A stretch of 26,116 nucleotides of DNA from positions 1 to 26,116 of IMG/VR virus record IMGVR_UViG_3300021368_001347; one strand, given 5' to 3'. The translations under genes were made by a program, and so were the position numbers. The notes under the pieces are model-generated. The model searched no databases, had not been told where the DNA came from, and saw only the letters and a list, made by a program, of their open reading frames with translations. How positions within the stretch are numbered: the stretch's first letter is position 1; every line of letters starts with the position of its first letter. This stretch comes from a virus. Of this stretch, positions 2,758 through 22,662 are shown one piece after another.

Positions 2758-3096
2758 TTAGATTATCTTTCCACATAATGAAATAAAATATTCAGCATCA
2801 AGAACTACAAGTGGTTTCTTATGATTCTTTTTCATAACTACAATCGGTTCATAGTTTCCAGCATTTGCTTTTGCTTGATCATATGCATCCCATACATTGA
2901 GTCTTTCTACATTCTTACACTCAACACTATATGGAAACTTTTCCCTTGCTGCTCTCGCCATAACTACATCTTCACCTCCAGCACCCATAGAACACGATTT
3001 GATATCTTCTGGATGTATATCAAATGTCTCTATGAGTTGTTTCACAACCCATTGCTGTAGTCTACGGCCCTTTCCTTTGGCACTTTGTGTCTTCAT
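2758..3096 (-). CDS. PD-(D/E)XK nuclease, Holliday-resolvase-like
   Basis: A 112-aa protein read from ATG 3096; the extra TTG codon upstream is not needed. The PD-(D/E)XK core is visible: KGKGRRLQ near the N-terminus, Asp43 in GAGGEDVVMA, Glu59-x-Lys61 in YSVECKN, and Gln74 in DQAKANA. The order and spacing resemble archaeal-type resolvase-like nucleases. Likely roles are processing of recombination intermediates or degradation of host DNA; the substrate cannot be read from sequence. It has its own sigma-70-type promoter, whose -35 box lies inside the terminator of the preceding gene. Confidence 0.75.
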   Translation of the reverse strand: MKTQSAKGKGRRLQQWVVKQLIETFDIHPEDIKSCSMGAGGEDVVMARAAREKFPYSVECKNVERLNVWDAYDQAKANAGNYEPIVVMKKNHKKPLVVLDAEYFISLCGKII

Positions 3097-3147
3097 CAAG
3101 TATTCATTAGCTCTATATACTAGTTATCTATGAACCCTGACAGAGTT

Positions 3148-3176
3148 ATTGTACACAAAAAAAGAGGGTTTGTCAA
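3148..3176 (-). promoter_or_regulatory. Sigma-70 promoter interleaved with a terminator
   Basis: TTGACA (3176-3171), a 17-bp spacer and TACAAT (3153-3148) on the minus strand. The -35 box occupies the loop and one stem edge of the terminator at 3157-3181, and the spacer contains the second stem arm and the T tract. Expected start is near 3141, giving a leader of about 45 nt before the nuclease gene. Confidence 0.75.
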
Positions 3177-3181
3177 CCCTC
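3157..3181 (-). terminator. Rho-independent terminator after the NrdB-linked small gene
   Basis: The minus strand forms a perfect 7-bp stem GAGGGTT/AACCCTC with a 4-nt loop, followed directly by seven T. The stop codon of the 71-aa gene (3173-3175) lies inside the hairpin. It would end the primase-NrdA-NrdB transcript. Confidence 0.85.
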
Positions 3182-3388
3182 CTCAACTGCAAGTTTGTAT
3201 GCTTGGTATGCATCGTAATCACCAAAAAGGAATGCATCCGATTTGGCTGCCTCCCTGTAGGATTCTAAACATTTTTCTTTCCAGGTTTTATCATTGGGAA
3301 TAGGTTCGGTACCATATTCCCATGTATCATAATCATCTTCGTTTCTGGGATCAGAGACTGAATCCTGCGAATGTGTCTTTTGTGACAT
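3173..3388 (-). CDS. Conserved 71-aa acidic protein downstream of NrdB
   Basis: A 71-aa protein starting at ATG 3388 (MSQKTHSQDSV) and overlapping the nrdB 3' end by 38 nt in another frame. A longer TTG-started version to 3421 exists, but ATG is preferred, with a G-rich stretch about 10 nt upstream. It is acidic and aromatic, with motifs YDTWEYG and FGDYDAYQAYK. No enzyme family is recognised. Its place at the end of the RNR operon is compatible with a helper role, but that is only context. The gene ends inside an intrinsic terminator. Confidence 0.6.
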   Translation of the reverse strand: MSQKTHSQDSVSDPRNEDDYDTWEYGTEPIPNDKTWKEKCLESYREAAKSDAFLFGDYDAYQAYKLAVEEG

Positions 3389-4529
3389 CTTGCTTAATAC
3401 CCCCAACAATATACGATTCAACCTCAGTCTCCTGAGGTGCTACTTGTAGTCCCTTAGAAGAGATCCAGTGCTCCGTCCATGGCAGTGGATTATTCTTCGC
3501 TGGTATATCGTATATAGGTTTGAGTCCAATCCCTTTCATTCTACGATTTGCAATCCACTCAACATACTGGTGCAGCAGTTTGTCATTCAGACCGATCATA
3601 GATCCATCTTTAAACAGATACTCTGCCCATGCTTTTTCTTCGTCAACTGTCTTACGGAACATCTCATAAGTGTTCTCTTGTTCTTCCTTGGCAATCTCCT
3701 GCATTTCAGGATCATCACCTTCCTTCCACTTGTTAATGATGTTCTGTGTCAGCACCAGGTGCTGGTTCTCATCACGAGCAATCAGAGAGATGATCTTGGC
3801 AGATCCCTCCATGAGTTTCAGTTCACCAAAGGCAAAAGAGCAAGCGAATGAAACGTAGAAGCGGATACCCTCAAGGATATTCACATTCATCACTGCACGA
3901 TACAGTTTACGTTTCAGTTCCCTACGCTCTTCCAGCATGTTAGGAGAGTCTTTCCAGTCTCCAGTCCACATACCACTGGAACCCCAGCGCTGGGCAGCGT
4001 TGAGGAAGTCATCATATGCCTCTGTGACGCTCTTGGCACGCTCAATGATCTTCTCGTTATCCAGAATCTTATCAAAGACCTCAGAGGCATCTGGATAGAC
4101 ATTCTTGATGATGTAGGTATAGGAGCGACTATGGATCATCTCCATGAATCCCCAGACCTCCATACATGCCTCAAGTTCAGGGAGGGAGCAATAAGGCATG
4201 AATGCCATACCAGGACCACGACCCTGAACAGAATCTAAGAGGATTTGATACTTTAAATTAGAAGTGAAGATGTGCTTTTGCTCTGGACGCAATTGTGCAT
4301 AATCTGCTCTATCTTTTTGAAGGGAGACCTCCTCGGGTCTCCAGAAATAACCTAATTGTTGTTGAGTTAGTTTGTCAAAAACTGGATATTTGTAAAGATC
4401 ATATCTCTGAACTCCAAGAGGTTTTCCAAAAAACATTGGTTGTTTTTTTCTCTCAACCTTCTCTGCGTTGAAGACCGTCATGCCTTCCATATGATCTTTC
4501 TCCTTTGTAGTAAACTTGTATTCTTTCAT
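3351..4529 (-). CDS. nrdB: Ribonucleotide reductase class Ia, beta subunit
   Basis: A 392-aa protein and the radical-generating subunit that partners NrdA in making deoxyribonucleotides. Di-iron ligands can be placed: Asp76 (RADY), Glu130 and His133 (EMIHSRSYT), Glu220 (ILEGIRFY), Glu254 and His257 (RDENQH). Tyr137 in SRSYTYI matches the E. coli radical Tyr122. The hydrophobic, acidic C-terminal tail ending TFAGFSL would dock onto the alpha subunit. It starts one base after the nrdA stop, so the two are one operon. All key residues are present, so it should be active. Phages use it to feed replication beyond host nucleotide pools. Confidence 0.97.
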   Translation of the reverse strand: MKEYKFTTKEKDHMEGMTVFNAEKVERKKQPMFFGKPLGVQRYDLYKYPVFDKLTQQQLGYFWRPEEVSLQKDRADYAQLRPEQKHIFTSNLKYQILLDSVQGRGPGMAFMPYCSLPELEACMEVWGFMEMIHSRSYTYIIKNVYPDASEVFDKILDNEKIIERAKSVTEAYDDFLNAAQRWGSSGMWTGDWKDSPNMLEERRELKRKLYRAVMNVNILEGIRFYVSFACSFAFGELKLMEGSAKIISLIARDENQHLVLTQNIINKWKEGDDPEMQEIAKEEQENTYEMFRKTVDEEKAWAEYLFKDGSMIGLNDKLLHQYVEWIANRRMKGIGLKPIYDIPAKNNPLPWTEHWISSKGLQVAPQETEVESYIVGGIKQDVTKDTFAGFSL

Positions 4530-9093: not shown

Positions 9094-9101
9094 TATTTAT
9101 A
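9094..9101 (-). promoter_or_regulatory. T4-type late promoter box TATAAATA
   Basis: An exact TATAAATA on the minus strand, 30 nt upstream of the 92-aa gene's ATG and immediately after the stop of the preceding 67-aa gene. T4-like late promoters need only this -10 element with the phage sigma factor gp55. Confidence 0.7.
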
Positions 9102-9556: not shown

Positions 9557-11109
9557 TTATTTTTTCAAGTTCTTTTCCTTTTGTCTTTTGGCAATTCTTG
9601 CTCGGACATCATCCATAGCGCCTGTACCTGGTGTTGGTCTCAGATCGTTCTTGCGCTTAGCAAACGCTGGATGATCTAATGGAAGATCCCTAGTCAATTT
9701 AGTAGCAATATCTCTGGTCTTTATCCTTTCTTCTCTTTTCTTATCACTTTCTTCACCAATTGTATTGAGTTCACTTCTCCAATCAGATGGATTAAGTTTT
9801 TCAGGTTCAATCAAATTAGTTGTTTCTATTTCAAGGGGTTTGTAATCATCTTTCCAATTCATAGACTCTTTAATCTTTGGATTGATCTCAATCTTATTCT
9901 TACCCTTCATAATATTAATAACTTTATTGATTTTCTCATCTTGCATTTTTTGTACCTCGTGAATAAACTCTTCTCTTTGTTGAATTAGTTTTCTCCTATA
10001 CTCTGGATCTAATCTAGCCCTTTGTCCTTTTGATCGAGGACCAGATTTCACTATTGCAGTGCTATCCCTCTTAACATTAGGACTGCTATTTCCACGATAT
10101 GCAGGTGATCCTTTGCTACGAAGAGATTCTCTTGCTTTATCCAATGCAGTGCTTCCCTTGGCGCGAACTGCTAAAGCACCTCCTCTTTCTCTGGGCCCTT
10201 GCATTGCCTTTGGGCCCTGCATTGGGTTTGGACCCTGCGTTGGACCTGATTGATTAGCACCTTGCTTATATTTTGCAAACCTTTCTCTCTTTGCTTCTCC
10301 TGCTTTTTTAATTGATTTCGCCCTTTGTCTAATACCCGCTTCCCTTGCTTTTGCAACTCTATCCTTAGACTTTTCAAGTTTCCTCTGTCTCGAATATTCA
10401 TCCTTTCTTCCTAATCTAGATCCAAGTTTTCTAACAATCCCAGATTCAACTTCATCCTTTCTGTTAAGTCTTGCAACTCGTGCTTGTGCTGGAAGCGCTG
10501 CTGCTTTCTTGACTGCTGCCTTACCAAGATTAACTGCTGACCTTGTAGTACCAACAGCAAGTTTTCCAACATTACCAAGCATTTTGGACATTGCTGTACC
10601 ATCACCCATCTCCTTATCAATCTTTTCAAGATTTCTAGGAGCAACACTTTGGGCTCGTTTAATACTTTTTTCTACACCTTTCTGGCGCCTATCAGCAATT
10701 GCTTCGATTCTCTTTCTTTTAGCAGTCTCTATTGCGTCCTTTTTATTCTCTTTAGTTCTTTGTGCCTTTCTTTCTCTCTCTGCCTGAAGTTCCTTCAATC
10801 TTTCCCGATTGAGTTTAGTTCTTGCTTCTTTATCTGCTATTTCTCTGTTTTGACGCTCAGCACGTTGGGCACGTTGTTGTTTAAGTGTTTCTTCTGCATC
10901 CTGTTTGGACTTCTCTCTATCAGGATCCGCAACTTTTTCAGTCAGGCTTTTTTTTTACCGATCGCCTTGCCAATTGCTTTACGACGATTCTTCAGATATG
11001 AGTCTGTACTATCTACCTTTCCATCATTATTGACATCAGAATCTTCCTGACCTACGGGGTCAAGTTTCTTCTCTTTAAGATCCTGATTAAACTGCTTCCA
11101 AGACTTCAT
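9557..11109 (-). CDS. 517-aa lysine-rich virion-type protein made by -1 shift
   Basis: Translation starts at ATG 11109 ([15 protein letters not shown]), with a late promoter box 28 nt upstream. The zero frame ends after 55 codons. A -1 shift within the nine-A run at 10948-10956 opens a frame of 463 further residues to 9557, for about 517 aa. The long frame has no ATG near its 5' end and is closed by TAA immediately before the A run, so it cannot start independently except at rare codons. An EF-hand-like loop ([12 protein letters not shown], residues 25-36) is followed by a very long Lys/Arg/Glu/Ala-rich helical region with QGP repeats and GGAL/AIVK motifs. This composition is typical of cyanophage virion-associated proteins. 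Either real frameshifting or a one-base homopolymer error explains the break. Confidence 0.7.
10942..11109 (-). CDS. Zero-frame 55-aa product of the frameshift gene
   Basis: Without a frameshift, ATG 11109 gives a 55-residue protein ending KAIGKKKA, with TGA at 10944-10942. It holds an EF-hand/dockerin-type calcium loop with Asp25, Asn27, Asp29, Gly30, Asp33 and Asp36, then a basic helix ([17 protein letters not shown]). If shifting is partial, both short and long products are made. If the A run is miscalled, this short protein does not exist. Confidence 0.45.
10948..10956 (-). promoter_or_regulatory. A9 slippery site, candidate -1 frameshift
   Basis: The minus strand reads GGT AAA AAA AAA GCC TGA in the zero frame. 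The run contains A AAA AAA, the homopolymer form of the X XXY YYZ slippery heptamer. The -1 frame is closed (TAA) just upstream and the zero frame closes (TGA) just downstream, so a shift must happen within this run. No obvious downstream stem or upstream Shine-Dalgarno stimulator was established. Confidence 0.6.
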
Positions 11110-11135
11110 TATCGCCAAAATGTCGTTCCTATGTT

Positions 11136-12317
11136 TTATTTATACGCTTTCCCACCTTTAACAATATATCGCTTATTCAATCCTAAAGCACCAGGAGTCA
11201 TCATGGCAACGTACTTAAACATTCCCTTTGTACCAACAAGTGTATTGGGATGCTTCTTATCACGCATCACTCTATCCATCTTAACTTCAGTATATTCTTT
11301 AATATCACGCAACCAAGACTTAAACATCAAACCATTCTCAGTTACACAGATAATATGATTAGTTCCACGACGAGTAATCTTACCAACCAAACCAGTATTA
11401 AGGTTCTCTACAACATCACCAATATTAAAAATTTCTCCCTTACGATATGATTCACGCAATGCTTCTTGATTAAACTTAGGAGCAATTTGCCACAATTCAA
11501 GATTTTCTTTGATATTCATTTGTTTACGCACTGCATTATACAGTTCACGCTTTTGCATTTGACCCAAAGTATTTGGAACTCCTCGTACAAATGCATTGTA
11601 ATCTCCAGACGCTGCATGTGCTCTCAACTTAGATGCAGACATACCAGATACATCATCAGCATCAGGATCACGAGATCCCCCAGAAAGAACCATGATGTTT
11701 TCAAAGTTATACAACTCAGAACCATTATACTTTTGTGCAAGACTCTGAAATTCAGATAACCGATCCTGACCCACCATAATGGTCACATCTGTTATACCTT
11801 TATTATATGCAGAAGAAAGAACATCAAAAATAGTTTTAGAACCAGGATCATCCATGATCTGTTCATCATACTCAGGAAACATTTTTTTCATGTATCCAAT
11901 CTTAGATCCTGCATCCAAAGGATTCTTCTTCTTGTCTTGAGTTCTACTTGGATAGATGGCAAGACCAAAACCTGTTCTTTTTGCTTCAGTTGCTGCTGCC
12001 TTTAATAGTTTCTGGTGGCCAACAGTTGGTGGGTTGAAACGTCCAAACACAACAACCATACCTTTTGGTTGCTTTTCTACCTTCTGTTGTTTGACTTCTG
12101 GTTTCGTTTGAGGTTTCTTAGGTTCTACTTTCTCTTCTTCTTTCTTCTTCTCAGTACGATCAAAGACCTTTAACTCTCCATCGACAGTCTTTGCAATCAA
12201 TTCACCTTTACTATTATACCAATCTCCATGACCATTACCAGTCAATCCCATCTTCTTTGCTTGAGCAGAAGCAGAAGTTTCTACCGCCTCATCCACAAAC
12301 TGTTTGAAATTTTTCAT
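11136..12317 (-). CDS. Cytidylyltransferase-like (HxGH superfamily) protein
   Basis: A 393-aa protein. The N-terminal 85 residues are a lysine-rich, probably disordered arm starting [11 protein letters not shown], as in cyanophage virion-type proteins. Residues 88-250 form a nucleotidyltransferase domain: [10 protein letters not shown] (92-101, with TVGH in place of HxGH) binds nucleotide phosphates, and [11 protein letters not shown] matches the ISSTxxR-type second motif. This fold transfers AMP or CMP to small molecules such as NMN or phospho-alcohols; the substrate is unknown. The C-terminus (about 290-393) has a KOW-like stretch ([20 protein letters not shown]) and LRDIKEY. An AATAAATA late-like box lies upstream. 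Late timing and the basic arm suggest it may be packaged in particles. Confidence 0.8.
11137..11144 (-). promoter_or_regulatory. T4-type late promoter box TATAAATA
   Basis: An exact TATAAATA on the minus strand, 28 nt upstream of ATG 11109. It overlaps the last codons and stop of the cytidylyltransferase-like gene. It marks the frameshifted lysine-rich protein as a late gene. Confidence 0.72.
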
Positions 12318-13257: not shown

Positions 13258-13272
13258 AGTAAAGTTTGGGAA

Positions 13273-13355
13273 CGGAGAGAACAGGAATCGAACCTGCGAA
13301 GGTTTTACCCCCAGCCGCTTTCAAGGCGGTGTCCTCGACCAACCGGACTCTCTCC
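13273..13355 (-). tRNA. tRNA-Ser (UGA)
   Basis: An 83-nt class II tRNA on the minus strand. Acceptor GGAGAGA/TCTCTCC pairs perfectly, with discriminator G. Anticodon loop CTTGAAA gives UGA, which reads UCN serine codons, mainly UCA. A long variable arm (CTGGGGGTAAAACCTTCG region) and T arm GGTTCGATTCC are present. CCA is not encoded. A strong promoter sits about 8 nt from its expected 5' end, and the ligase-like gene starts 16 nt after it. Confidence 0.95.
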
Positions 13356-13369
13356 TCACTTACAAGCAT

Positions 13370-15070: not shown

Positions 15071-15078
15071 TATTTATA
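15071..15078 (-). promoter_or_regulatory. T4-type late promoter box TATAAATA
   Basis: An exact TATAAATA on the minus strand, 26 nt upstream of ATG 15045 and next to the stop of the preceding 72-aa gene. It opens the late block of the 336-aa and 211-aa proteins. Confidence 0.72.
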
Positions 15079-22654: not shown

Positions 22655-22662
22655 TATTTATA
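22655..22662 (-). promoter_or_regulatory. T4-type late promoter box between hsp20 and a terminator
   Basis: An exact TATAAATA on the minus strand, between the Hsp20 stop (22685) and the terminator (22636-22595). Predicted start is near 22649, so unless the terminator is passed the product would be an RNA of about 50-55 nt. Confidence 0.55.

Follow-up and report, generated by a model that had tools for sequence, protein, structure and literature searches.

Transcriptional slippage on poly-A has been described for spa13 of Shigella and tssM of Citrobacter rodentium, where the tract follows the first ORF (58 codons in spa13) and an extra A leads to a C-terminally extended protein, in tssM without translational stimulators (PMC5009743; PMC4256274). 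At the tssM site, transcriptional slippage amounts to ~20-25%, and the absence of stimulators was part of the argument for it (PMC4256274). Poly-A cassettes of 7, 9, and 11 A gave 10, 40, and 63% frameshifting in reporters, and A_AAA_AAA is also a listed slippery site for the ribosome (PMC3711429). Two further systems come from tailed phages. In the tail chaperone gpG/gpGT of phage lambda, the ribosome shifts by −1 shortly before a short ORF ends, which yields a minor extended form, and in gene 10A/10B of T7, a −1 frameshift yields a second, longer structural protein. To our knowledge, recoding in tailed phages is known chiefly from tail chaperones and a few capsid genes.

The locus described herein combines elements of these systems. 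It shares with spa13 and tssM a poly-A tract after a short first ORF and, as read here, an extra A that would lead to a C-terminally extended protein; unlike these bacterial secretion genes, for which RNA and protein data exist, it is a phage late gene known from its sequence alone. As in lambda, the proposed shift would occur in a tailed phage just before a short ORF ends, and, as in T7, it would lead to a second, longer structural protein. However, the slip site differs from both. The gene and its neighborhood are also different from those of lambda, with no homology found—neither the short nor the long product resembles a tail assembly chaperone in Pfam or PHROG—and, compared with the capsid gene of T7, the extension is ~465 codons long.

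The sequence under study, referred to as the window, is an IMG/VR virus record taken over its full stretch of 26,116 bases. It encodes a B-family DNA polymerase, a RecA-like protein, a helicase, and a ribonucleotide reductase and also carries late promoters; by this gene content and these promoters, the source virus is identified as a T4-like cyanophage. Its polymerase gene shows ~71% DNA identity to the Synechococcus phages S-SSM6a, S-SSM7, and S-SCSM1. Directly upstream of the locus lies a cytidylyltransferase/NMNAT-like gene (11136-12317, minus strand; Pfam CTP_transf_like, PHROG 395), which serves as the syntenic anchor. Its last codons overlap a T4-type late promoter at 11144-11137, an exact match to TATAAATA, as the original prediction had it. 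There are four exact matches to TATAAATA in the window, all on the minus, gene-bearing strand, with the other three located at 9094-9101, 15071-15078, and 22655-22662. As to tRNA genes, tRNA-Asn and tRNA-Arg at 1560-1712 are called by both ARAGORN and Rfam, and a tRNA-Ser (tga) at 13272-13358 on the minus strand is called by ARAGORN and not by the Rfam tRNA model at gathering score.

The central element is a run of exactly nine A at 10948-10956 on the minus strand, which forms the heptamer A_AAA_AAA (10954-10948) in the zero frame. The zero frame runs for 55 codons from ATG 11109 to the TGA at 10944-10942; a TAA at the 5′ edge of the run (10955-10957) closes the −1 frame, and a TGA after it (10938-10940) closes the +1 frame. 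Past its TAA, the −1 frame reads AAA AAA AGC CTG ACT GAA and then stays open until the stop at 9559-9557. The run, the short frame, and the stops of the zero and −1 frames are thus all where the original prediction had placed them. The long frame (9557-10954, minus strand) exists as well, with a length of 465 codons plus stop if counted from the first AAA, the 463 codons given earlier being the count from AGC. It is lysine-rich and, as had been noted, lacks an ATG at its 5′ end; GTG and TTG are likewise absent nearby, the first TTG being codon 52 and the first ATG codon 115 (0-based).

The A9 run stands alone in the window, as every other A or T run of at least seven is exactly seven long. It is also more than the lysine content would bring about by chance. 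In the large ORFs of the window used for this comparison, AAA makes up 45% (210/465) of the lysine codons; of 13 other Lys-Lys-Lys stretches, not one is written AAA AAA AAA. Given this codon use, the all-AAA run is beyond chance. All relatives described below use AAA for the three lysines of the run, and only three of the 16 other fully conserved lysine columns of their group A are all-AAA.

Because a dockerin-like module is frequent in cyanophage genes, matches to this module alone mean little; relatives were therefore sought in IMG/VR by the DNA upstream of the run only, namely the end of the cytidylyltransferase gene with the late promoter, GGTGGGAAAGCGTATAAATAAA. This search returned nine contigs, and a more degenerate query returned the identical nine. 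One of them (L187) stops short of the run; the other eight each come from a different IMG metagenome, and the −1 break is present at the run in all eight. Four contigs (group A: L092/L014, L093/L012, L013, and L094) carry A9 in the context GGTAAAAAAAAAGC[C/T]T[A/G]A, with the zero frame ending in GKKKA-stop and the −1 frame reading KKSLT[E/D]. The other four (group B: L186, L188, L189, and L190) carry A10 in the context GCTAAAAAAAAAAG[T/C]T[A/G]A, with AKKKS-stop and KKKL[T/S]E, respectively. In group B, the stretch between run and stop is shorter by one base, which balances the tenth A and keeps the frame broken with an offset identical to that of group A. Throughout, T precedes the run, and A_AAA_AAA in the correct frame is followed by GC[C/T] or AG[C/T] and then by TGA or TAA. 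Within group A, A9 is kept while the flanking codons vary (CTG, TTA, or CTA for the leucine after the run, TGA or TAA for the zero-frame stop). A pattern scan that allowed a variable run length returned A9 only. The cytidylyltransferases of the members are 76-79% identical to that of the window (81% over one partial sequence); hence, they do not represent one clone. The independent observations are nevertheless fewer than the contigs, of which there are only nine, since some are close kin (L186 and L188 are nearly identical). Group B has two N-terminal modules that differ from that of the window, so that the break persists under three modules in all and the slip site outlasts the exchange of the module upstream of it.

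Relatives were also reached with the dockerin-like module as query and profile and with a C-terminal profile. The lysine-rich ORF as a single query against IMG/VR retrieved no relatives, and the upstream-DNA query gave no match in the genome contigs collection. A loose poly-A pattern returned mostly chance matches and was left out of the results.

Both frames bear signs of coding constraint. The zero frame is conserved among relatives with dN/dS of about 0.08-0.24. For the −1 frame, dN/dS ahead of any ATG, GTG, or TTG is about 0.47 between the window and L094 (44 codons), about 0.47 between L092 and L013 (97 codons), and about 0.34 between L186 and L190 (127 codons), values that stem from divergent, lysine-rich alignments over short stretches. 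Differences between L186 and L190 fall 31/24/44 on positions 1/2/3 of the −1-frame codons. The first in-frame ATG of the −1 frames is scattered (codon 21, 97, 113, 115, or 127). These comparisons indicate that the −1 frame is under purifying selection at the amino acid level directly from the slip site onward, ahead of any start.

The short zero-frame ORF spans 10942-11118 (minus strand) at its longest and ends in GKKKA-TGA. TTG 11118 is a possible start besides ATG 11109 because relatives have either TTG or GTG at this codon and, in group A as in the window, it is preceded at ~8 nt by an AGGA; by these signals, either start may be used with about equal likelihood. The product contains a single loop with a 12-residue calcium-loop motif (11002-11037, minus strand; Pfam Dockerin_1, E 1.1e-4). 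The match to PF00404 (Dockerin type I) is partial and, with 22.7 bits, just under the gathering cutoff of 22.9, so that the predicted protein is named dockerin-like only, as opposed to a full Dockerin type I domain. Dockerin-like is also the better name for what had earlier been labeled "EF-hand-type." The long part has no match in Pfam or PHROG.

Taken as recoding as such, without regard to the machine that slips, the A9 tract of this T4-like cyanophage is very probably a programmed −1 site within a late gene, with the break conserved in eight of eight contigs and both frames constrained. Standard decoding would produce a dockerin-like protein of 55-58 residues with a KKKA end, and a fraction of events would produce a fusion of ~520 residues that runs on into the lysine-rich frame, both products presumably being made from one gene. 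The addition of one A by RNA polymerase would turn A9 in the DNA into A10 in the mRNA; a −1 slip of the ribosome on A_AAA_AAA would give the identical protein. The tract shows what is expected of slippage genes, a homopolymer at least about 8-9 long that lies where the frames change and is kept in relatives (A9 or A10 in all nine sequences), and also what is expected of −1 frameshifting, an in-frame X_XXY_YYZ heptamer with a zero-frame stop soon after.

Between the two machines, slippage of the RNA polymerase is slightly favored, with a chance somewhat above even, since no conserved stimulator was found. Downstream of the run, single-sequence folding gave z values of −2.1 to +1.2 and no helix shared among members, and inspection by eye found no conserved Shine-Dalgarno-like site upstream. 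The slippage at tssM, likewise without stimulators, and the frameshifting of the poly-A cassettes also speak for the polymerase. Large column-shuffle z values were given no weight, as this null model suits such alignments poorly. Group A has a small hairpin just 5′ of the run, which the repeated codons of AIGKAIG explain; it is not seen in group B and hence not counted as an element. The preference for the polymerase is only slight because the bacterial enzyme slips less readily on A tracts than on T tracts (PMC6260861). Ribosomal frameshifting—a tandem tRNA-Lys slip on A_AAA_AAA without a strong stimulator, differing only in the slipping machine—is a serious contender, though at less than even chance. 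It is supported by the heptamer, which is listed as slippery and which every member carries in the correct frame, and by a remote relative (L055/L057) with an in-frame A_AAA_AAG and a plausible −1 ORF. The missing stimulators count against it, and so does the retention of an unbroken A9/A10, as A_AAA_AAG shifts far more readily than A_AAA_AAA in E. coli (PMC5009743). Some known ribosomal frameshift sites have no stimulators. Their absence here thus lowers the probability of the ribosomal reading without deciding against it.

The other explanations do without recoding. With only one metagenome contig at hand, a homopolymer would naturally be suspected of being a miscalled base or part of a decayed gene, and the original prediction had held that a miscall of A10 would remove the effect and that ten A would restore one uninterrupted frame. 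The persistence of the break in eight contigs from eight other metagenomes removes the miscall, and A10 is itself found in four contigs with the frame broken in all four. The coding constraint on both sides likewise speaks against a miscall or decay, and this explanation is extremely improbable. Hardly more probable is a phase-variable tract that toggles the long protein on and off by replication slippage: A9/A10 tracts are prone to such slippage (PMC3711429), but none of the eight contigs nor the window is in the ON state, and the bases downstream make up for the change from A9 to A10 between the groups. A layout of two separate genes, in which the long ORF would be translated without fusion, either coupled or reinitiated at an internal or non-AUG codon, is unlikely as well, even though it is exactly what a sister clade (L015-L018) presents. 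Both ORFs recur in these contigs with their relative frame unchanged but without a long A run, and the second one begins with an ATG that overlaps the TGA of the first (ATGA) and is preceded by an SD-like AAGGGC. The methionine of this second ORF aligns with the leucine of the A-run clade, which is encoded by CTG, a conceivable weak start, in L094, L189, L190, and the window. However, L092, L093, L013, L186, and L188 have CTA or TTA at this position with no canonical start for 21-127 codons, the −1 frame is constrained upstream of the first start, and the A run would be left unexplained.

Recoding remains the preferred reading for the A-run clade; other layouts occur elsewhere among cyanophages. 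The cytidylyltransferases of L015, L016, and L018 are 68-70% identical to that of the window. In the isolates S-E7, Syn19, S-CAM22, S-SCSM1, Bellamy, and S-SCSM2R, the ORF that follows the cytidylyltransferase is uninterrupted and contains the dockerin-like module; the gp185-type genes of S-E7, Syn19, and S-CAM22 directly follow the cytidylyltransferase and carry the module near the N terminus as in the window, yet in a single frame without an A9 run. S-BM3, S-SSM7, and S-SRM01 have uninterrupted ORFs of other content at this place, and in RB11-B the module is found within the cytidylyltransferase gene itself. Together with the sister and A-run clades, these phages show that fused, coupled, and, as read here, frameshifted versions all exist, and, with one uninterrupted ORF in most isolates examined, the split gene is not universally required. 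Compared with S-E7, the gp185-type gene of Syn30 (L010, near 2941-3106) lacks one A in GGAAAAGAAAAA(A)TTAG at its 5′ end, and the annotated CDS begins downstream of the dockerin-like module; the missing A may be a sequencing error, a mutation, or recoding.

The products of the window are suggested to be virion proteins by synteny with S-SCSM1. The NMNAT-like protein encoded upstream in this phage was detected in virions by mass spectrometry (PMC9602691), and the next gene, which shares the dockerin-like module with the window (55% over 49 residues), is annotated as a virion protein in its record. Virion location is hence only inferred from these two observations.

A parallel A9 site is found in L055 and L057 (~3108-3400), a different phage pair whose dockerin-like ORF ends in NIKKKKK-stop (ATA AAA AAA AAG AAA AAG TAA). 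The in-frame heptamer here is A_AAA_AAG, and the −1 frame, ~77 codons long, looks coding (EKVTEDFRVPFDTKRRVVPNYKK...), possibly marking an independent frameshift site. As a more speculative reading, with a chance below even, the slip site would be a conserved module boundary, at which the N-terminal module is exchanged among cyanophages and the poly-A break is kept; L055/L057 would then be a second, independent case. If so, a fraction of a long, lysine-rich late protein would bear an interchangeable N-terminal tag that is also made free.

Among the titles and abstracts returned from an open-access library, none reports poly-A recoding in a cyanophage. The case is also a warning that such genes are split or dropped by gene callers and that an A9/A10 tract in a phage contig is not to be written off as an error. 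If true, the finding would extend recoding to a late gene of an abundant marine group, the T4-like cyanophages, and the site would allow one to ask whether the slipping is done by a cyanobacterial RNA polymerase engaged in the late transcription of the phage or by the ribosome of the host.
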